The notes beneath the pieces were generated by a model. It was not told the origin of the DNA and did not search any database. It saw only the letters and a list, made by a program, of their open reading frames with translations. From the NCBI RefSeq assembly GCF_964275005.1, contig NC_092705.1, positions 25,074,630 through 25,138,629 on the forward strand: 64,000 bases of DNA. Direction: 5' to 3'. This DNA comes from Diadema setosum (Eukaryota > Echinodermata > Echinoidea > Diadematoida > Diadematidae). Positions within the stretch are counted from its first letter, which is position 1; every line of letters begins with the position of its first letter. The position numbers and the translations under genes were made by a program. This document shows positions 3,545-53,099 of this stretch, in pieces.

Positions 3545-3639
3545 AATTCTCATATCATTTTTCTTTTACAATGTATAATGAGAGTGGACTGTTGAGAAAT
3601 GCTATTTCCTTCTTTTATACTTTCCTCCCAATGCATCAG

Positions 3640-3783
3640 ACTGGAAGTCTCATCTCAATAGGGATGCTCCTATTCTCCGGTACCTGCTACTTTTCAGCGT
3701 TGACAGGAAGCACAGCCCTGAACAGACTAGCTCCTATTGGTGGTCTAACTCTGATTGCAGGGTGGGCTTCCATGGCTCTCTGA
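3640..3783 (+). CDS. TMEM256: TMEM256-like protein, last exon
   Basis: Last coding exon of the same gene, 47 codons plus TGA. It starts after a CAG acceptor at 3637-3639 and ends at 3781-3783. It encodes two hydrophobic segments around SGTCYFSALTGS, then LAPIGGLTLIAGW and a C-terminus of SMAL. Human TMEM256 shows the same order: SGTTLFCTSFYYQALSGD, LAPAGGTLLLLGW, and a terminal LALAL. The intron between the two exons is 3,051 bp and holds two TTAA-flanked MITEs, a foldback and CAGT-ended MITEs. A longer frame beginning at 3571 is only read-through into the intron. Membrane topology follows the family and was not computed. Confidence 0.9.
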   Translation, partial: TGSLISIGMLLFSGTCYFSALTGSTALNRLAPIGGLTLIAGWASMAL

Positions 3784-7248: not shown

Positions 7249-8556
7249 ATCATCTTTTGCCTTTTTGTTACAACTTTGGTACTTGTATGATTTCATTCAC
7301 ATTAACTGATTTTTTTTCTTAATCTTGTATATTTCAATCAAAATATTGACATGTCATTGAGGCAAGTCTTTAATACTCTATTGTTTTCTCTGTATTCTGT
7401 GACATCGCCTTGTTCATTTTCCAGCAACACAGACTAATAAATTATACCATCACTGATTAAACAACCTGTAATACATGCTGTATCTTAAAATGTAGAAGTC
7501 CCACTTACAGTGAACACATAAACATGAACAATGTATTCAACAAAAACACTTGATTTGTTTGGCATTGTGTGGTCACAATGTAAAGACATGGGCATTGCCA
7601 ATTTTATTAAAGAAACATACAAATCAAAAAACAGAAACACACTGATCATCATTCTTGCTTCTCCCTCATTCTCTATTATCCAATCATCACGTTAAAATCA
7701 ATGTGTAAAAACCATAATGACTTTGTTCAGTCAACCTTGCAACCATGCCTAAACTAATCTATTTGGACTGAAGAAATAGCTTCAACTTAGAGAAAATTTG
7801 ACTTCAATGAGGGATTAAAATCAACAATATAAAAAGATGGCTTGAAAAGACATTTGACTTGGGCAACTATTCGACTTATGTGATGTCAACTTAATAAACA
7901 AGGGTGACTGTAATTCAAGTTTGTTTTCATGATTTCTTTTTTATTTTTCTTTAGTCACAAGAAGATATCTTGCAGCATGTGTCCAAGTACATTTGTAGGT
8001 TTAAGAAAACAAAAACTGTTCATAAAACTGACAATTGTGCATTACACTGTATATTGTACACTGTATGATCACATAGGATAATAGTGTGCCTACTGTCCCA
8101 GACTGACTTAAGTCAAAGTAAGTGCCTTTTTCCATGTATTCATTTTTAATGATGAAGTTAACCTGGTCTCTGATGTGAACCAAAAATATACAATCGAAGA
8201 GTTTGACTGCAGAAATGAAATAACTCCATTCTTGTTTATTTGAGATATTTGCTATTAAAAAAATTTGTGTGTACCTTCAAAAATGATCCTTGTTTATGTA
8301 ACAAGGGTATATTTTGCTTGATCTAATGATGAAATTATGTTAATTAAAAATTTTAAAATATGGTGTTAATTCCATTTTGCGATCAAACTCTTAATTTCAA
8401 GAAGCTGATATTTACTTTGGAATGTTAGCTTTCAGATAACATTGATGACAATCAGAGATGTAATTACCATCTTTACATTCACAAAAGATGAGTGCTTCAA
8501 TTCCATGCAGTGGATTAAGGACTTAACACACAGGCTGCAGGAGACTGCCAAAACAT
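7249..8556. other. Intergenic, no gene seen
   Basis: AT-rich sequence between the TMEM256 tail and the repeats at 8.5 kb. I see no splice-bounded coding exon, RNA gene or clear terminal repeats. Confidence 0.4.
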
Positions 8557-8746
8557 TACTGTAAAAGTGGAAATTTTTAGCGCATTTGGCATGACCAGAT
8601 AACAAGTGCAAAAATAAAAGCATGCAAATACTTTCACTTGTTGTATTTACCACTACATGTATGTAATATCTTGATTCTGCCAAAATACAAATATGCAAAA
8701 TTGATCTCACTTGGCAGAGTGCAGAAAACCATGTTTTACAGTACAT
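8557..8746. mobile_element. MITE with ACTGTAAAAGTGGAAATTTT ends, copy 1
   Basis: The left end reads TTACTGTAAAAGTGGAAATT and the right end ATGTTTTACAGTAC. Between them are GCAAAAATAAAAGCATGCAAAT and CGCATTTGGCATGACCAG. Other copies start at 21622 (left end only), 28565, 34455, 49350 and 56836. Confidence 0.65.
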
Positions 8747-9588
8747 GTTACCTGTCACTACACAGGCCTTTTAAAGTCACTGAACACCCACTCACTGGGC
8801 CACGTATTACAAAGCATTGTTATCAATCATAACTCTCCCAATCAATAGCAAGTTTGCAACTGATTTCAATTCCATCTTTAAAACCAACAAGAATTGCAAT
8901 TGATATCACCACAGACTGTTGGGACTCAACTGATTGCAAATACAAATGTCAAAAGCTGTGATTTATTCTAAATAAATCGCAGGAAATAAAAAATGAATTG
9001 CAAATTTTCAATTGCTTTTGGATTTGCAATCAATCAGTCTTTTTTCCCATCAAAGAGGGTATCATTTGATAGAAGAGATAAAACTCTTTACCATTGAGGT
9101 AATTTCAAGTCAACTGGGAATTCAGATTTGTAATACATGTACAAAATTACCAAACTTTGGTATAATGAATTGAGTGCCCTTGGTAAGCTTTACAGAAGGG
9201 CATACATACCGGTAATCTTTTCCTCTCAAAATGTGCAGAATCTATATCTTATCCTTATTAACGTTCACAATTTCCATGACCACTATGATTGAAGCAGATA
9301 GAGATAGGACTCACAGAACAGCATAGGTGGGACTAAATTCTGATCATTGCAAGATGATATTCTGTGATACCCCATAACGAATATGACAAAGAGTTTTTCA
9401 TTTTCCTTTCAAACTAATTTTTATCACAGGTACTACTTGATTTGGGTGTACAGTTCTTTCCACCTGCGGCATGGAAAAACATCAAATTCAAAACCACAGG
9501 AAAACAAGGTCTTGACTACAGTGCTGTAATGATAGCAATTCTGTTGTGTCAACACAAGCAAGTCCTGTTTTTGAAGCAGTAAGAACTT
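8747..9588. other. Intergenic, no gene seen
   Basis: AT-rich, with CAATTGCAATTGAT-like stretches at about 8880-9030, probably an old palindromic repeat. No coding exon is supported. Confidence 0.35.
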
Positions 9589-9786
9589 ACTGTAAAACCA
9601 GAACCATTTGCGACATGAAACTTTCGTGAGTCAGAGCTTATGGCCTTATCCCCAGCACAAAATTTTCGTGAGTTGTCAATAGCACCCGATGCATTGTGTA
9701 GAAAAAAAAAAAACCTTTTATGTGCATTTAACCTCCGCGAATCTGGGCTCCATGCAAAATTTGCAACACTTTCATGTATAAAAAAA

Positions 9787-11043
9787 CTAGAAATGTCGCT
9801 TTGGCGACTGGTATGCCTCCGCCATAATGCATGATTTTCCCAATAGGTCTAGATAGTACATGTGGACAATGTGTGATTACATTTTCACAAAAATAGGAGA
9901 GCATGTATCTAGGGATTTAAGGACTTTAACTCGACTTTGACCCATTCATACATTTAGGCATTGAGTAATTTTCAAGGTACAGGTGTGGAGAAAAAGTGCA
10001 ATTTCTGAATTGAATAGTAAATTGTTAACATTTTCATCTGGCCCTTGACCCTAAAATTCATAAGATAATCACTTTCAGGTAGAACATGCATAATATGTAC
10101 TAAGTTTCAAGATAACTTGAGCCACTTCCGAGATATGGAGGAAAAAGTTAGTTCAGCACTTTCACTTGATCTTTGACCTTTTGACCTTTGAGGCAAAAAA
10201 AAGAAGAAAAAAAAAACTTTCCAGAGAATTTCTATTAGGTTACACATGTATGCATACACCAAGTGTTAAAAAAAATAACCCTGCTGGCATTGCATGATAG
10301 GAGGGAAAAAGTAAAAATTTGAAGTGTTGCACTTGACCTTTGACCCCTGAACTTTGACCCCATGAACCCTACATTCTCTAGATAATCACTTCCAGTCAGT
10401 ATATGTATATACTATGTTCCATGAAGATACCTTGAACAATTTTCCAAGGTATGGAGAAAAAAAAGAGGTTTTAATATTTTTACTTGACCTTTTGACCTTT
10501 GACCTCATGACCCAAACTTTCACCAGAGAATCTTAATTGGGTAATACATGTATACACTAAGTTTCAAGAAAATATCTTCAGGCATTCAATAGAGATGGTG
10601 GAAATAGTGAAATTTTATGCATTTGACCCTGACCTTTTGACCTTTGACCTCATGACCCAAACTTTCACCAGAGAGTCTTAATTGGGTAATACATGTATAC
10701 ACTAAGTTTCAAGAAAATATCTTCAGGCATTCAATAGATATGGTGGAAATAGTGAAATTTTATGTATTTGACCTTGACCTTTTGACCTTTGACCTTGAGC
10801 ATGTGCACCCAAAAGTTGATAGGCACAACTTCACCCCCTAATACACATACATGCCAAGTTTCATTAGGATACCTCAACAGGTTTTGATAGTTACCTTGTC
10901 CACAAAATTCATTACGGACGGACGGAAGGACGGACGGACGGACGGAAGGACGGACGGACGGACGGACGGACGGACGGAAGGACGGACGTACGGACAACCC
11001 GAAAACATAATGCCTCCGGCACCACTTCGTGGCGGAGGCATAA
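9787..11043 (-). mobile_element. Helentron-like non-autonomous element (HINE-like), copy 1
   Basis: A 1.26-kb element. Read on the minus strand it starts TTTTTATGCCTCCGCCACGA, continues with a GGAGGC hairpin and a (GTCC)n minisatellite, and has a body full of AGGTCA words. It ends TTATGGCGGAGGCAT, then the hairpin GTCGC-CAAA-GCGAC, then ATTTCTAG. The inverted pair ATGCCTCCGCCA near both ends, an internal minisatellite, a 3' hairpin just before CTAG and T-rich target flanks match Helentron-associated elements. It carries no Rep/helicase frame. Long SVRPSVRPS frames are minisatellite artefacts. Confidence 0.7.
10915..10996. repeat. GGAC/GTCC minisatellite within HINE copy 1
   Basis: About 80 bp of GGACGGAC units with occasional GGAAGGAC variants. 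It corresponds to the GTCC array at about 49951-50023 in copy 2 and a shorter, more diverged one at about 31038-31070 in copy 3. Confidence 0.9.
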
Positions 11044-11230
11044 AAACTGTGGTTTTACTCTACTTAGCTGGAAGTCAAAGGAACACTTGGGCTTGAATTG
11101 TAAATAACCGGAGAAAAAAATCTAAAGCAACTGCGAAGTCTGATGTATCTCTCTTCAAGTGACAACTGCCACACAACAGCCTCAAAACTTCTCTCAGAAA
11201 ACACGATACTGTTCTCACAAGTATGGTTGC

Positions 11231-12778
11231 TCAGGTGTCTGCTTGCAACGGTTGATAGTAACGTTTTGCGAGCTCACCCACCAGAAAGGATTCGTAGCTG
11301 TCGAGCTCTTTGTGCAGGTCCGGAGGCTGGCCGCGAGTTTTGGCGTTGAAGAGGCGAATGACGTTGACCGCCTTGAAGGCTTCTTCAAGAGTTGGAGAGT
11401 CCTGAGTCGTGTTCCATTCAAGCTCGCCATCATCTGAATCCCCATTCACAGACTGAGAGTCATAGGGGCTCTGTCTTTGGTGACACTCATCATCATTGTC
11501 CACTATGATGTACTCCTCCAAGGGTGGAAGACAGGGATGCAAGTTGGACAGCTTGTCCCACAAAATTCTGAAGTCCCTGAGCTGTGCTACCTTCTTATCC
11601 AATTTGGGGTCCGTGTGGGGAGCTTCCTCATCTGGTGCAGCAGGGGCTGTGGCTGCAAATCCCGCACTTCCGAAGACCTCAACGATTGCCTGGGTGCTGA
11701 TTTTGGCCCAGGAAGATCTAAGGGCAAGGACTGCATCAAGGAGGTCCCAATGGAAATGTTTCTTGCTCTCTGTAGCCACAAGGAGTCTGGAAGAAAGAAT
11801 GAGCCTGTAATTCAGCTTCAGCGTGTGAATTATTCCCTTGTTCATTGGCAGAAATTCAGCCGTCAGGCAGTCTGGCAGTAGGACCAATTCAATGTTCTGG
11901 AGTTCTTCTACCATATGCACCGGACAAGAGGCTAACACCATGGCAATTTTGCGGTCCTGGCTACCCATAGCACTGTCCATTTTGTACAGCCACTCTCGGA
12001 AGAAGGTTTTAGTCATCACAGCTTTCTGGTATGCCTTGTAATCAACGGGAAGAGATTGTACATTCCTGAATGAAGAGGGGTTCAGTGTCTTCCCGATGAC
12101 ATACAGTGGCATCTTGTCAGTGCCGGCCATGTTTGCACACATCAGAATAGTGATGCGCTTTCTGGCTTTCTTGTTTCCATTGGGACTCCTCTTGCGATTA
12201 CAGTACTTCCCTGGTAGCAGTTTCCAATAGAGACAAGTCTCCTCGCAACAGTAGATATCAGGTGGGTTGTAACGTTTGAATAAGTCCTTAAGGACTTCTT
12301 CATTCCAAGCAATGACATCTTCGTCCTTACTTTCATCCTCTGTGCTTGCACAGCTTGGGGTTAAGATACCGTATCTTTTCATGAAGCGCTTTACCCACGC
12401 AGGGCTTGGCCAAGTCTTGTGTCCAAACTCCTGTGCGAAGACCTTGGCCTGGGCCTGCAGTGCTTCGCCTTGTGGGGACGCACCTGTGAACAACTCCTGC
12501 TGGCGGACCCACATTATGAGGACTTCAGCCACATCATCATACACCCCAGTCTTCACCCTCATACGGGTCCCTTGCCATGCCTCATCCGTATTTTCAAAGG
12601 TCTTGATTATTTTGTCCCTCTTCTTAATAATATCTGCCAGGGAACTTTGTTTCAGATCAAATCTGGCTGCAACGTCCTTCCTCTTTGCATGGGGGTTTGC
12701 CTCCATAAATTTTATGATGTCATATTTCTCCTTATAGGACCTTGACGTGATCCGTCTGGGAGCCATCTCGGCTCTCAC
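11231..12778 (-). CDS. Tigger/pogo-like transposase-derived protein, catalytic triad lost
   Basis: An intact 515-codon single-exon frame. Residues about 8-60 form a CENP-B-type N-terminal helix-turn-helix (SYKEKYDIIKFME, KRKDVAARFDLKQSSLADI). About 75-138 form the second, CENPB-type DNA-binding domain (WPSPAWVKRFMKRYGI). About 170-365 form the DDE_1 fold, followed by an acidic 120-residue tail. In active Tigger proteins the motifs are NxDET, LDNCPAH and QPMDQG. Here they read CCEETCLYW (E179), LASCPVHM (A283) and LPMNKGII (N313). All three metal-binding aspartates are changed while the frame stays open, which argues for a domesticated DNA-binding protein like CENPB, JRK or TIGD rather than a live transposase. 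No flanking terminal repeats are seen. ATG at 12776-12778 is used; a second ATG lies at codon 5. Confidence 0.9.
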   Translation of the reverse strand: MRAEMAPRRITSRSYKEKYDIIKFMEANPHAKRKDVAARFDLKQSSLADIIKKRDKIIKTFENTDEAWQGTRMRVKTGVYDDVAEVLIMWVRQQELFTGASPQGEALQAQAKVFAQEFGHKTWPSPAWVKRFMKRYGILTPSCASTEDESKDEDVIAWNEEVLKDLFKRYNPPDIYCCEETCLYWKLLPGKYCNRKRSPNGNKKARKRITILMCANMAGTDKMPLYVIGKTLNPSSFRNVQSLPVDYKAYQKAVMTKTFFREWLYKMDSAMGSQDRKIAMVLASCPVHMVEELQNIELVLLPDCLTAEFLPMNKGIIHTLKLNYRLILSSRLLVATESKKHFHWDLLDAVLALRSSWAKISTQAIVEVFGSAGFAATAPAAPDEEAPHTDPKLDKKVAQLRDFRILWDKLSNLHPCLPPLEEYIIVDNDDECHQRQSPYDSQSVNGDSDDGELEWNTTQDSPTLEEAFKAVNVIRLFNAKTRGQPPDLHKELDSYESFLVGELAKRYYQPLQADT

Positions 12779-12779
12779 T

Positions 12780-12785
12780 GTTTAA
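12780..12785 (-). promoter_or_regulatory. Candidate poly(A) signal ATTAAA for TMEM254
   Basis: ATTAAA on the minus strand immediately upstream of the Tigger-like ATG and about 555 bp past the TMEM254 stop. It is the only near-consensus hexamer I noticed between the two genes. Use is unproven, and the Tigger frame might instead lie in the TMEM254 transcript tail. Confidence 0.25.
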
Positions 12786-13340
12786 TACGTTGGAAGTAAA
12801 ATTCAGTATGGTAGAAAACTCAAGATTCTCTTTTCAGTTCTGTGTACTATCACTAAACCACACCTATGTTGGTAACTTGCAAAATCCTATTCCTGTCATG
12901 AAAGGGGGGGGGGGGATATCTGCTAGAGTCCACTGACTATGGGGCCACTCATGTCCTTGCCTTGGGCCCAATTTTTGAGACCTTTTACCTTTTAGAACAA
13001 TGACGCTCTAAATTATCAAAATGTCCCAAACATCAGTAAAGAAAGAACATCTCAGAACTTTTGCACATTTCTTGCACTCTTTGGGACCAGATCCTGCTTA
13101 AGAACAAAACAAATTAAACTAGAATAGACACTCAGATATATGAAAGAAGGAAAGGCACAATATACAGATAAACGAATATTTGACACAGTTCAATCAAAAC
13201 ATGATCAAGTTAAACTCTCTTTGAGTGTAGACAGCAACTTTCTGGAATACTTTGTGCTCTGATAATCTGTTCAATTTGTGGCAACTTTAAACCCCCTTCT
13301 TCCCGTTGGGATCATCTACCACCAGTTCTCCGGCTGAGAG

Positions 13341-13461
13341 TCAATCCCTCTTCTGAGTTCGGGTTGGATTGTACTGCAACAGACGATACATTGACACAAT
13401 GCCAAAGAGGAGAGTGAAGATGAACCACTTAGTCCTAGCTGATCCTGAGATTCCTTTCATC
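13341..13461 (-). CDS. TMEM254: TMEM254 exon 4 (last)
   Basis: Starts after the acceptor TTTTCCACAG and completes a GGG codon split over the junction. It then encodes MKGISGSARTKW, the last membrane segment and a basic tail ending in QKRD before TGA at 13341-13343. Confidence 0.92.
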
Positions 13462-15546
13462 CTGTGGAAAATAAAAAGACACAAATAACCGGTCACCATG
13501 AAGCAGGTTATTCTATAGACTGCAGAACCCTGAGGCTACGAGATATAAAGTTTTTATGTCACCTATGAAATAGAAATACTACTTGTAACAATTCTGATGG
13601 GCAAGACTTCAGATGAATACGACAAGTGAAGATAAATGTCTGAATTTCACATGTACTGAAAGTGTCTCGAAAAAAATTTGCGCTGAATGTAATATGAGAA
13701 CTTTTATTCCAGTAGTGTAACCATCCTACTTGTGAAACCCTTCTATTATAGCAGTAGGGATATGAAATTTGGGGAAAGGATCAGAAAATGAATTCAACCT
13801 GTGTAATTTCATTTATGCAACACATTACTGATAATTCTCAAGAATACATGAATACATCACATGTGGAAATAAAGCTCACTCATGCACACACACACACACA
13901 TACACACGCACTGCATATAACATGTTAATATATGGCTGTGACTTTCTTCTTCATATGAGGATTTGTCTCCATGAAAATATGGCAGATATAAATGCAGCCT
14001 TGTTTAGTCATACTTCTGGGCCATCTTAACCTTCAACATATACTTTGGAAATATGTGAATAAACATACACACTGTACACATCACAATAAAAGCATAATAT
14101 ATTGCTTCTTACCCCGCCAAGTAGTAGGCATAGCAACCTTCCAGGACATGCATAAATATTGCTGTATAGCATCTATAGAGAAAAGGAGAAAGAACAATAT
14201 GAGCACTAGAAAGCATAAAATTATTAAACACAAGCGCAAACTTCAAAATGAGTGGCTGAATTGTAAGAAATGTTGAATAGTTGAATCATGTCCCACATAA
14301 TCAAAGTATATGTATTCAAGAGCATCACAAGAAATACAAAATAACAAAAAATATACATTAATTATCAATTATCTTCAGAGGAAATTCATTGTCATACTTG
14401 TTGAAAATTTGTCATTTAAATGGAAACATACTGCTTTCACTTTAGAATAAGGATGACATGAGCAGAAAAAACAATACTCAGAAAAACATAAAACATAATA
14501 CATGTACATTATACACTGAACAACGATGAGCACATAGCAGGCTCAGATATCCCAATTACGCAGCAATGTAATTCCCTTACAATACCACTTGCTCAACAAC
14601 TTCACCTAGAGCTATAGAATCTGACTGCTTTCTTCTTTTGATCTGCTTTCTTTGAGCACCAAATCACACTGTATACGCCAAATATTTCGCGAGGTTTTTA
14701 TTTTCACGAATTTCGCGTGTCAGCTGCTATTCGCGAAATTCAAAACACGTGAAAATATTGACTCTGATGCCGATATGAATGTGACGTATGCTTACACATT
14801 TCTCCGTTCAGTACAGGACTCCACGATCGCGACTTTTAAACCACTCGCGAAATTGTCGGGCAGACCAGATTCGCGAAAATTTAGACTCGCGAAATATATG
14901 GCGTATACAGTACATTCTTATGTGTAGCTGCTATATTATCGTTCTTGTTCATTGTGATTTTGTATGAATTTTGAAAACGGTCTTTACGCATCACCCCAAT
15001 CACTATAAATTCTGAAACTGTGTACACAGTATGGTCAATTTACAACTCTAGGTAAAAAAAGCACTCTGCATCCTTGAGGCTCTGTAAAAATAACATGAAG
15101 TCCAGAGGAAGAGATTTTGCTCACATTGCTCGCATCACAACCGGTTGCTTGTAGGCAAGGAAGTACGCCAACTCACTGATAGGACCCAGGTAGTCATATG
15201 GCACGATATCTCGTTTGAAGGTACACAGCTGCACAAATAATACAGGGGTTTTAAAAGTGAAACTGATCAACATAGCCATTGTTCATGTTTCTACACTGAT
15301 CTTGTATGTATGCATGCATCCTGCTTTGAATCATTTACATCACTTCACTTCTTAAGACTCTTTTGTCATAAGGATATAATATTATAAGCTTCAACGTTCA
15401 ACTCAAAATTCCTACAGTGCTGTAAATCTAAGCACAAGATGATCTTTCATACAAAGACAAAAACATATTTTCTGGCTAGAGTAGAAAACATGGACATAGA
15501 ACCACTCGTATTTCGGAGTAGTAGAATCTAGTAGTAGTAGTACCCC

Positions 15547-15579
<33 letters not shown>

Positions 15580-16642
15580 TCAGTATTTGTGATCAGATTA
15601 TTCTTTATCGCTAGTTATTTTTAAAAATGGCATCTGGTCAGGTAATAGACCAATCATCATGCCTAGCTTGTTTGGTGGTCTCTCGACCTGTTTTCACTGT
15701 GACGTACAGTCGGTGATGTACAGTCGGTAATAGGGTCAACTGACCATACTTGTCATTACATAAATACATGTACTACCAACCGTACTGTTTATAATAATAA
15801 GAGGCTAGAGGTCACGGAACAGGAGGCAAAACTATCGGTCTAGTCAGACGTCAGGTGATGGTCAGACGAAAGAAGTATTTAAGAGTCTACTACTTGTCTA
15901 GTGTCTTCAGAAACTGTAGAAAAGCCCACAAAACCTGACATTTATCCCCAGTATGGCTGCAGTACTGACCCATAAACACACGGACAGTAGAGTCGAGAGA
16001 ACTAACAGTATACACAAACAGTAGATGAGATCGATAGTGCAGATTTGCAGATATTTTGACATACATTGTATAAATTAAACTTCTTCTTCTTCTTCCTGGT
16101 GAGTGACTGCAATGAACATGCTGATTATTTCGTCACTTTGTCAGGTAGGCAGGTAGGTGGACATTGCACGGTGCAGTAGATTTTGAGTACCTAATAGATA
16201 ATCCCAAGAAATTATAAAGGTTCATTCATTGAAATACACTGTAACTTTAATTTAAGAAACAAGTCAACTGAAGGTGAACATTACGATATAATTTAACTCA
16301 TTAAATTTTGTAAGATAAGTTTACGAGAACATCATTATTCTTCATAGTTCTATCGTTAGGTGCTCGACAAGACAGGTGCATACAGGTACAACTACAAAAT
16401 TGTAATCATAAATACACTCAGGGTCTAGTAACTAGGCCCTATCCTATTCTGGTGGGAATTAATGGTAGGGGCCTAAAATCTGAGGATCCGAGCTGAATAA
16501 GTTTAATTCAACAAAAAAATTACAAACATATCTGCCTAACCGTCGCTTAGCTTACCACAGTTAGAAGGAGACCTAATGTAACTGCAATCATACCAATTAC
16601 ATTCGGATATACAAAGTAGTTTGTCTGCTTTACTGACGGCAT
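13341..16642 (-). CDS. TMEM254: TMEM254 homologue, complete four-exon gene
   Basis: Small multi-pass membrane protein of unknown molecular function. Coding exons on the minus strand are 16642-16556, 15228-15125, 14172-14113 and 13461-13341. They join in frame to 123 codons plus stop, exactly the human TMEM254 length. Introns have GT donors (GTAAGC, GTGAGC, GTAAGA) and AG acceptors. Diagnostic matches to human are VPYDYLGPISEL (human IPYQNLGPLGPF), HVLEGCYAYYLA (HVGESLYAIVL) and KGISGSARTKWFIFTLLFGI (HKGITSGRAQLLWFLQTFFFGI region). Hydrophobic segments lie at residues about 13-31, 61-80 and 91-110. Three exons are too short for simple frame searches, so the gene is easily missed. The CpG-containing sequence at 16640-16960 is the likely promoter. 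Confidence 0.93.
14113..14172 (-). CDS. TMEM254: TMEM254 exon 3 (60 nt)
   Basis: A 60-nt exon bounded by CTCTATAG and GTAAGAAG. It contributes the second base-split codon, 19 whole codons (CYTAIFMHVLEGCYAYYLA) and two bases of a glycine codon. Confidence 0.9.
14668..14912. mobile_element. MITE with ACTGTATACGCC ends, copy 1
   Basis: ACTGTATACGCCAAATATTT and its inverse GAAATATATGGCGTATACAG bound a 245-bp element rich in TTCGCGAA palindromes, lying in TMEM254 intron 2. A close copy is at 17578-17808, and one split by another element is at 25571-27632. Confidence 0.8.
15125..15228 (-). CDS. TMEM254: TMEM254 exon 2
   Basis: A 104-nt exon between the acceptor TTTGTGCAG and the donor GTGAGC. It encodes LCTFKRDIVPYDYLGPISEL and then AYFLAYKQPVVMRA plus two bases. 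The PY-x-x-LGP word is the best conserved signature of the family. Confidence 0.92.
15524..15580. repeat. AGT trinucleotide microsatellite
   Basis: An AGTAGTAGT run, broken once by CCCCGT. Confidence 0.85.
16556..16642 (-). CDS. TMEM254: TMEM254 exon 1 with start codon
   Basis: 29 codons from ATG (16640-16642) to the donor GTAAGC: a short polar start (MPSVKQTNYFVYPN) followed by the first hydrophobic segment IGMIAVTLGLLLTV. No in-frame upstream ATG was noticed. Confidence 0.88.
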
Positions 16643-16960
16643 TTTGTCGATCAATTTGTTGGTGGACTGTTCGGAGTAAGAACTTATCAAATAGAACTCA
16701 CGGCAAAGGAAATACGTCGGACTGAGAGGAGTGAGACGTGGGACAGAATGAGGTGGTTCGAGATCTAGCTAGGTGCGTACCGTGGCTTCTGACCGAACAG
16801 CACGGGGCAGCGACTCCACGCCGGAAGTTTCCATGAAATGCTAGCCTACGTGTACGTACGTACTTGTTGCTTGTAGTATATGGACAAAAGCTGCACTTGC
16901 AGTGAGCGCGCCTATTTTCCACTGCACGCTCAGCTTTGAAGTTCTAGTGCCCGCGAAAAG
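16643..16960 (-). promoter_or_regulatory. Likely TMEM254 promoter/5' UTR region
   Basis: Directly upstream of the TMEM254 start. It is richer in CpG than its surroundings (GTACGTACGTAC, GAGCGCGCC, GCCCGCGAAAAG), as expected of a housekeeping promoter. No TATA box can be assigned with confidence. Confidence 0.4.
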
Positions 16961-17295
16961 GCTGTTTCTATGTCCGTTTGATTAAGAAATAATAAATAAA
17001 AGAAAAATATATTAATAGAGCAGTGTCTGGCTTAAATATTCTGGTTGTTAAAGAGAATGGAAAACGCCACTAAGCACAAATCAGCAACAACAACATTTGA
17101 TTGTTTTTGTTTTATATCTAAAGTTGTACTTTCTTTCTTCTTCTCCTCCTCCTTCTTGATCTTCTTCTAATTCTTCTTGTAAATCGCATTGCCCTTTTTC
17201 ATGTCGATTTTTTTTTCGATTTTTCAAATGTTTTTTTTTTCTTTAACCCTTCATTTTCCCCACAACTCCGGCGTTTCCCTGTTAAAAAAAAAAGA

Positions 17296-26700: not shown

Positions 26701-29700
26701 ATACCTCACAAGTTAACGGTAAACACCGCATGTATGTTACCCTGAAATCATCGCGATCTCGCTAGGTGAAAGTAGCGTAAAAAAGTTGAATGACGCATGT
26801 TAACCTAAATCAGAAAAAGAAACCAATGCATTTATTAGTTTGAATAGATCTGGGTTTGTTCATTATTACAATTTTAACGCTGCACTTCACAAAGACGACT
26901 TTTCTTTCTTTCAGAAAGGTCTACCAGGTAAAGATTTGCGTAAAAAGGATCACAACCTTCCACATTCAATCCTGTCGCATATTTTTCAAGAACGGATGTA
27001 CAAAACGCAAAGAGATTTTTGGGAAGAAAATAGAGAACGCATTTTTAAGCCCTTCGGGCGCAACGATCATACGTTGTACAAGATAACAGCCGAAATGATT
27101 AATTAAATCATCGCATTCCTGCTGGGCACAAACAGCGTAAAAATACCTCGCAAGTTACGGTTAAAACAAGGCCTGTATGTTACTCTATCTGCGCTGGTGT
27201 TTAGAAAAACTTCACAAACAAGAATTATTACAATTAAGATTTAACTCATTTCAGCCCCTACTTTTTCGTCTAATTCACAAATAATTTCCCTTTATTCTCT
27301 CAATAATAATGATCCATAATTGTGTAATAACAACGCAAAGGATGTCCTTAGGTTTCATTTATGGGTATATGATGTCGTGCTTATGTTTTTCTTTGTTTTT
27401 TATACGTACGGATATAATGAGGTACCGGTTATAACGAGGTAATATCGCCGGTCCCACGGACCTCGTTGTAACGGGGTTTCACTGTATACTACATGGAGGA
27501 ATGTATGAGTGCACGTCACATTCATGTCAGGATCAGAATCAATATTTTCGCATGTCTTTAAGTACGCAAATAGCATCTGACTCATGAAATTTGCAAAAAT
27601 AAAACCTCGCGAAATATTCAGCATATACAGTAGATGACAGTTGAAATGCCGATCTTCCATTACAGTACTGCACGTGTTCAAAGCATCTTTACAACATGAC
27701 CATCTGATAATGATCAATGTTTCCATGTCATGTCTTTACCACTGAGTTGTTACAGAGTTACATACCTCCAGACTTTGCACAATGTATCTGTACAAGTATA
27801 ATCTAGCATAAGACTATAATCTACATGTTGAACGGATACTGCTGAAGTCATTATTTTCTTCTTCTTTTTTTTTTTTTCATCAAGTACAGTTTGATGTTTA
27901 TAGGACATAATCATCACTATTCTACAGACAGAACTGAAACAAGTAACTTTTTTCCGCGAGTCACAAAGTTCACAAGGATTGTTGTCTTTGGTAACTTCAT
28001 CAGTGCCTTCAAGCTAGATGAGATAATCTTCTACCAAAGTGTGTATTCCTGTTGATTCTTCACCCACCAGGTGGCAGCCATCTCCCTGGACTCCAGGGAG
28101 ACCGATGCGGACGAAGATGACGAGGAGAAGGACTACGTCGACATCGATGCAGAAAATGAAGGGGACCCACATCTCGCCCCGACGTACGCAGCACACATCT
28201 TCAAGTACCTCAAAGAAAAAGAGGTTGGTCTCTGTCACCTACCCTAGTGACTCCCAATGTGTCTTCAGGCATGGCAGCATTATGTCCTCATTGTTACAAA
28301 TATTTCCTCCGTTTTACTTCCTGAAGATCAAATGAAACATTTAAGTGCCAGTGCAGTATTGGTAACAAGATTGCTATTCGTTTCCACCAAATATTGTAGC
28401 AGGAGAGTTTGTACCGACAGTATCCAAACAACTGTATTTTGTTGACACCGACAGACCAGGAAACTATGAACAAAATGCCCAATGTTTTGTAGCAGCCATT
28501 TATTCTGAATAATTCAACAGAGATGTGGATATATTGAGCCAATAATATGGCAGTCCTTTTACTCTACTGTAAAAGTGGAAATTTTCACAATATGGAAATT
28601 TTTGGCATTTTGCACAACCAGAAGCTAGTGCGAAAGTAAAAGCATGCAAATATTTTTGCATACCATATGTTCCAGTGATTAATGTTCTGATTTTGCAGAA
28701 TTAAAACTCACGAAATTCATCTCAGCCCAGCCGAGCATGAAAAATTACTCACGCAAAAATATCCACTCCTACAGTATTCCAGAAATAAATGCACAAAAAA
28801 AAGTATTCAGTAGCCTTGGCACTTCTTGTCTCATTCACCTCAAGGAATCAAATAAGATCGAAGACTACTTTGACCGCCAGACGGACATATCCCGTCACAT
28901 GAGGGCGGTGCTTGTGGACTGGCTGGTCGAGGTGCAGGAGAACTTCGAGCTGAATCACGAGACACTCTACCTGGCAGTCAAGCTGACCGACATGTACCTG
29001 GCCAGGGCCACGATATCCAAGGACCTTCTGCAGCTTCTTGGCGCTACCTCACTCTTCATCGCCTGCAAATATGATGTAAGTCCACAGGGTAATCGTCATG
29101 TCCAAGGATGGAGTACCTGTGTGTTGCTCTACAGGGGTAGTCTTGTAGATGAGTTTATTTAATGACTAAGTTTCTAAAATGAATTGACAACACAAAGATC
29201 ACTCTTCCTGTACAACATGGTGGTCATGTAAAATTTCTCCTGTGATTCGCAACTCTATGGCCCGTATTCTGCTAAAAACTTAGACTCGAGTTTAAACCCA
29301 CGCCTGGGTCTAAAGTGGGTTTTGGGGGTTTAAACCTGGGTTTAAACCACCAGTTTAGACCCAGGTTTAAACCAAGGTTTAATTGGTATTCTGCTAAGTC
29401 CAGCTGTGGTCTAAATAGGGTTTAAATTAAACCTACCCAGGAGGAGGTTTATTTCGAGTTTAAATCGAGTCTACTTACGATGACTGGTAAAGGTACCAGC
29501 ACACAGATCAATGCCAATGGCACAAAACGAGTGGCTGGCTGGATACAGCAGCAGCTGCCTGCAGCTAGCTTGCCGGCCACACGTGTGTACACACGAGATA
29601 CGCCTAAGAGACTACGTACTAGATCTAGTACTTGTACACTTAGAAGAGACTCGAATGTTAGAAATACTAGTCCTAGTACTCCCTGTACTAATAAGTATAC

Positions 29701-52776: not shown

Positions 52777-53099
52777 AATATATGCATACGCGCAAACAGC
52801 AACAGTAATCTTAATGACATTGTTTACTAAGCAATTTTTCAAGTTTTTCGAGTTTTCAATCATTGAGTCACTTTGGGCATGGCTTCTTTCATCATTTAGA
52901 AAATTAATATGAAAATGCAGCTCGATTCCTGACTTAGCATGCCATCAGTATCTGATATGACTGCGTGACATGCTGATGTGAGTTCATTCTGGTGCTATCT
53001 TAAAAAAAAAAAAAGAAAGAAAAGATAAGTGATAATGGTTTATTTTGATTATCACCCTGTACAGCTGTGCTTATGTGAATGATGTTAATTATGTTGACT

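Follow-up and report, generated by a model that had tools for sequence, protein, structure and literature searches.

A Tigger-derived open reading frame with a fully replaced catalytic triad in Diadema setosum is probably a domesticated transposase

Introduction

Does an open reading frame (ORF) that derives from a Tigger transposon of the pogo superfamily, with none of the three aspartates of the catalytic triad and no internal stop codon, represent an element on its way to decay, or a gene that the host has retained? The question is raised by a locus on the minus strand of a 64,000-nucleotide stretch of the Diadema setosum genome (contig NC_092705.1, positions 25,074,630 to 25,138,629), to which we refer as the window, and for which a preliminary description had proposed domestication.

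According to PMC7386202, twelve genes of vertebrates derive from pogo transposases, and the presence of Tigger elements in echinoderms is reported in PMC9219625. In the sections of PMC7386202 and PMC7325037 used here, the pogo/Tigger domestications described are those of vertebrate genes. We found no paper naming an echinoderm Tigger-derived host gene in the part of the literature covered, which, given this partial coverage, is weak evidence. Where an echinoderm gene and a recently multiplied sister transposon occur in one genome, the changes on recruitment (loss of the triad, retention of the frame and faster protein evolution) become directly measurable.

Open frame and domain architecture

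The ORF (11231..12766, minus strand) comprises 511 codons from an ATG, followed by a stop. No internal stop occurs in the minus-strand frame between 11231 and 12781, and an in-frame TAA (12782-12784) lies just upstream of the ATG at 12766, which is the likely start. The 515 codons given in the preliminary description were counted from a GTG at 12778, such that the unbroken frame stands and the length is reduced to 511. The GC content of the ORF is 49%, compared to 39% for the window, and reaches 56% at third codon positions.

Translation and Pfam comparison identified three domains (residues in the 515-codon numbering, all on the minus strand): a weak CENP-B_N helix-turn-helix (12599..12736, residues 15-60; E = 8e-5, 22.6 bits, narrowly above the 21.2-bit cut-off), a second DNA-binding domain, HTH_Tnp_Tc5 (12365..12541, residues 80-138; E = 6e-9), and a DDE_1 (RNase H-like) core (11672..12160, residues 207-369; E = 1e-32). 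This is the domain order of domesticated pogo genes of the TIGD/JRK type. The N-terminal 130 residues of the ORF protein, including the second domain, align with the DNA-binding structure of human CENP-B (1hlv, E = 2.3e-9); the CENP-B dimerisation domain was absent from the Pfam hits to the ORF with E of 1 or less. A profile of alignment A1, which contains 13 rows (the ORF protein and 12 relatives, all from one genome), also matched 1hlv (E = 3.3e-29), as well as fission-yeast Abp1. The tail of the ORF protein (146 aa) contains 28 acidic (D+E) vs. 14 basic (K+R) residues; the acidic tail pointed out earlier is therefore present, but it is not distinctive, given that the related transposon proteins have acidic tails too.

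Loss of the catalytic triad and of other conserved residues

In alignment A1, the first catalytic aspartate is replaced by E175 (GAG codon, 12242..12244, minus strand), with the NADETG motif changed to CCEETC, the second by A279 (GCC, 11930..11932, minus), with DNCPAH changed to ASCPVH, and the third by N309 (AAC, 11840..11842, minus), with QPMDGG changed to LPMNKG. These positions, numbered from the ATG, correspond to E179, A283 and N313 in the earlier 515-codon numbering, and the complete replacement of the triad that had been described from the sequence is confirmed by D/D/D at the same columns in 8 of the 12 same-genome relatives (L010, L013, L014, L015, L018, L019, L020 and L024). The triads of L010, L014 and L015 are not independent observations, because these three are copies of one transposon. 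The four remaining rows show D/N/D (L011), G/D/D (L025), N/T/E (L023), and a missing first motif followed by C and D (L033). The metal-dependent chemistry of DDE enzymes requires the three acids; with all three gone, the ORF protein should therefore not transpose.

The losses extend beyond the triad. The eight D/D/D relatives, all of which come from one genome, are uniform at 84 columns; of these, the ORF protein keeps 55 and differs at 29, and the claim that only the catalytic residues had been lost does not hold. Retention was 15/24 in the DNA-binding half, 36/55 in the catalytic half and 4/5 in the tail, with no significant difference between the DNA-binding and catalytic halves (Fisher p = 0.80). 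Thus, the DNA-binding domains, previously called intact, are recognisable by Pfam but are not better kept than the rest of the protein. We also considered whether the losses cluster at the triad: within residues 137-370, 13 of 24 conserved columns were kept within 8 residues of a triad position vs. 25 of 33 farther away, which is not significant (p = 0.10).

Copy number and terminal repeats

A protein search of the 912-Mb genome returned 33 matches among the best-scored candidates; after the match of the ORF to itself, full-length identity was at most 41%, and that of short pieces at most 49%. Stops were present in 14 of the 33 matches, and many of the 19 without a stop were short or young. 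The best candidates of a DNA search of the same 912 Mb consisted of the ORF itself and one 84-base match at 77%. Hence, no second copy of the ORF was found among the best-scored candidates of either search. Orthologues of the ORF were likewise not found in viral contigs and phages, as expected for an animal gene.

No pair of terminal inverted repeats (TIRs) was found around the ORF. When the TIR of L011, a relative described in the next section, was compared to window positions 8000-17000, the best agreement was 17/26, at 13785, where the orientation is not that of a right end, and an equal agreement of 17/26 occurred at 53081 of the window. Remnants of L010-family TIRs or flanks were sought at the ORF as well, where the flanks gave at best 63-66% identity over 120-128 bases (E = 0.001-0.002), which is unconvincing. 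Instead of the many near-identical, TIR-bounded copies that had been named in advance as evidence against domestication, the best candidates from the 912-Mb genome thus yield one copy and no TIR. An active Tigger/pogo transposon would have D/D/D, TIRs with a TA target-site duplication, and similar copies, and the ORF differs from it in all three respects (among the best candidates). A single copy, no detected TIR and an open frame are also the state of domesticated genes of the TIGD/JRK type; TIGD2-TIGD7, JRK and JRKL are single genes that are not known to have TIRs.

The closest transposon family and descent

The group nearest to the ORF is a Tigger transposon family with seven loci in the same genome (L010, L011, L012, L014, L015, L016/L021 and L017/L022). 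The longest pieces over which these loci align reach 3.8 kb and are 87-99.5% identical; for the outer pieces of L011, identity is 70-84%. The left ends of the seven loci read TA-CAGTCAACCTCG (TA-CAGTC) or close variants, and an inverted repeat of 26 nt, 88% alike, was seen in L011. The members of this L010-type family are the closest full-length relatives of the ORF and share its domain architecture, with 38-39% protein identity in A1 (four rows) and 40-41% by BLAST. L010, L014 and L015 keep D/D/D, whereas L011 has D/N/D. In contrast to the seven similar copies with TA-CAGTC ends, the ORF is represented by the one copy found, at which no TIR was detected.

In an unrooted tree (LG+G4), ultrafast bootstrap support was 100% for the split that sets the ORF, the L010 group and L013 apart from the remaining Tigger-like proteins. 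The amino-acid branch leading to the ORF is 1.07-1.12 long; from its base, the path to L010 measures approximately 0.40-0.44. At third codon positions, the ORF differs by 61-71% from the 8 relatives compared.

Selection and neutral decay

Codon models were fitted to 9 of the 13 A1 sequences (L011, L023, L024 and L033 were omitted; L025, with its changed first D, was kept in the background) over 488 columns, each with a letter in the ORF and letters in at least 6 of the 9 sequences. In the two-ratio model, the background had an omega of 0.068 and the ORF branch one of 0.39, a significant difference (2ΔlnL = 8.7). The comparison of 0.39 to omega = 1 gave 2ΔlnL = 2.1, such that the codon model alone did not reject 1, the value that the preliminary description had named as evidence against domestication, and the likelihood profile of the ORF branch was flat upwards, allowing values from about 0.14 to more than 1.5. 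When the same estimate was made for control branches, omega was 0.01-0.05 for L013, the L010 stem, L018, L019, L020 and L025, and 1.32 for the young copy L015; the low values on the long control branches are unreliable because synonymous sites are saturated. The omega of the L013 branch was 0.01 although the L013 copy carries a stop, and because the codon model cannot see stops, these were added to the analysis.

A branch that first evolves as a transposon and then neutrally fits best with a neutral part of 0.81 substitutions per codon. With 15.4 stops expected per unit, this amounts to approximately 12.5 stops, and none is seen. Once the stops were charged, the neutral part shrank to 0.001, and the log-likelihood was -11300.25, 4.4 units below that of a branch with omega = 0.39 (-11295.88). 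Neutral decay was also simulated with the L010 frame as the starting point, using substitutions without frameshifts at 8 divergence levels with 4,000 copies each. Loss of the triad together with an open frame was observed in none of the 32,000 copies, and the product of the separate rates of triad loss and open frame was at most about 1e-4, before frameshifts, which would further lower the chance of such an outcome. With the absence of stops added to the codon model, neutral evolution of the ORF is very unlikely, and the stop-free frame argues for selection.

The foremost alternative to retention by the host is that the ORF is a copy in early decay, from a Tigger lineage otherwise unfound in the genome, that lost its triad by chance and has not yet acquired a stop or frameshift. 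Such a history would agree with an ORF-branch omega that, with stops left aside, is compatible with 1, with an optimum, when stops are charged, at which the branch is almost wholly that of a transposon with hardly any neutral phase, and with the fact that decaying copies can stay open over a long distance, as in L015 (425 open codons, omega 1.32). Nevertheless, we consider it unlikely in view of the simulation results, of the failure to find sibling copies or a TIR among the best candidates, and of the 29 of 84 conserved columns that have changed, which is hardly expected of a young dead copy.

A different possibility is a former host gene losing constraint, which was domesticated once and now drifts, still unbroken. 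The long amino-acid branch of the ORF, its omega above those of six of the seven control branches (all but L015), and a CENP-B_N domain barely over the Pfam cut-off are all in keeping with this scenario. The complete lack of stops in 511 codons speaks against it, however, and newly recruited genes usually evolve fast as well; we regard the scenario as improbable.

Interpretation and comparison with known domesticated genes

Taken together, these results indicate that the ORF is probably a domesticated Tigger transposase that would bind DNA and retain its catalytically dead RNase H-like domain as a scaffold. The domestication initially suggested for this locus gains from the single copy, the lack of a detected TIR and the absence of stops, but has to accommodate losses beyond the triad and DNA-binding domains that are not favoured over the remainder of the protein. 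Under this reading, a Tigger (pogo-superfamily) element would have inserted at the locus, its terminal repeats would have eroded, and selection for a role other than transposition would have kept the frame. The two helix-turn-helix domains most likely bind DNA in a CENP-B/TIGD-like manner, the RNase H-like domain, no longer cutting, may be a folded scaffold on which the protein oligomerises or binds partners, and the resulting protein could be a chromatin or transcription regulator. We propose binding and a regulatory role because of the domains and the known vertebrate genes.

These vertebrate genes offer the closest comparison. TIGD2-TIGD7, JRK and JRKL, of approximately 470-670 aa, have the same CENP-B_N / HTH_Tnp_Tc5 / DDE_1 domains as the ORF, and their catalytic triads are altered (PMC7386202, PMC7325037). 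The table of PMC7386202 has a question mark for CENPB, TIGD3, TIGD4 and TIGD5, of which the TIGD triads are supplied by PMC7325037, for instance DA30P for TIGD3 and DA60E for TIGD5. The triads given in these two sources keep the first D, whereas all three residues are replaced in the ORF. Furthermore, in trees of same-genome proteins, the ORF falls beside a transposon family that shares its genome, and its recruitment would probably be independent of that of the TIGD/JRK genes.

A more specific function can be imagined for a domesticated protein of this kind: the dead host transposase might bind to, or co-assemble at, the terminal repeats of the recently multiplied, perhaps still mobile L010-type family and so restrain it, with L023 (see below) as a parallel recruitment. 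We put this forward only as speculation with a low chance of being correct. Should L023 prove to be another such gene in this genome, repeated recruitment would be indicated outside vertebrates as well. It is hardly credible that the ORF is instead a non-autonomous element that depends on the L010-type family, a related and recently multiplied family in which L010, L014 and L015 keep D/D/D, for continued mobilisation in trans: among the best candidates only one copy was found, no TIRs were found at the locus, and its flanks have no clear homology to that family.

Genomic setting

The assembly has the look of an echinoderm genome, in that its mitochondrial contig C102 carries cox1, trnR, nad4L, cox2 and trnK in this sequence (nad4L and cox2 were named by eye), which is the gene order of echinoderms. 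The neighbours named in the preliminary description, TMEM256 and TMEM254, were both verified by Pfam matches to peptides from the window: TMEM256 (DUF423) at approximately 3628-3744 on the plus strand, and TMEM254, as a joined peptide, in pieces from 13344 to 15282 on the minus strand. A comparison of the TMEM254 Pfam family to the whole genome gave no match, even to the window's own gene, although the joined peptide does match; this miss arises because the exons are short. The ATG of the ORF follows the TMEM254 stop at a distance of about 0.57 kb. Between the two (12767-13343), AATAAA is absent, and only ATTAAA (12786) and TTTAAA (13291) occur out of ten signals considered, so a shared transcript is possible. 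Within 1.4 kb downstream of the ORF, there is also no AATAAA, only variant signals. A SETMAR-like splice fusion with TMEM254 was rejected, because TMEM254 exon 2 leaves two bases and thereby sets the putative acceptor ahead of the ORF's ATG out of frame, as judged by eye, which is a weak test.

Several other features of the window were recorded. Approximately 0.2 kb past the 3' end of the ORF, a repeat stretch (9775-11045) is bounded by GCCTCCGCC and GGCGGAGGC, contains many TGACCTTTGACC-like repeats, and has a GGAC tetranucleotide array at its end. At 14668-14911 there is a small element with 26-nt terminal inverted repeats that are 96% complementary, and a frame at 28737-29162 encodes a cyclin N-terminal domain (Pfam Cyclin_N, E = 5e-27).

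Other altered Tigger-like frames in the genome

We identified 93 DDE_1 matches in the genome, 26 of which contain internal stops, and inspected by eye 20 further DDE_1 stretches that were chosen for long open frames. The open Tigger-like frame of L023 (1201-3249, plus; C5:36611090-36613138) encodes 683 aa with the triad N/T/E and an N-terminal MDPNMEPR-type repeat. One copy was found among the best candidates, with the best long paralogue at 39% and short pieces at no more than 42%, and in the unrooted tree L023 has a long branch and is placed as sister of the L018/L019/L024 group. L033 (1339-2733, minus; C4:42788953-42790173) has an open Tigger-like frame of 465 aa, in which the first catalytic motif is missing, the second D is replaced by C and the third D is kept; it is sister to L020, again on a long branch of the unrooted tree. 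The open Tigger-like frame of L025 (1261-2874, minus; C18), of 538 aa, has the first D alone changed, to G. L060 (C10:17347500-17351900) contains an open DDE_1 frame of 662 aa with a very acidic tail and catalytic motifs that are hard to recognise by eye.
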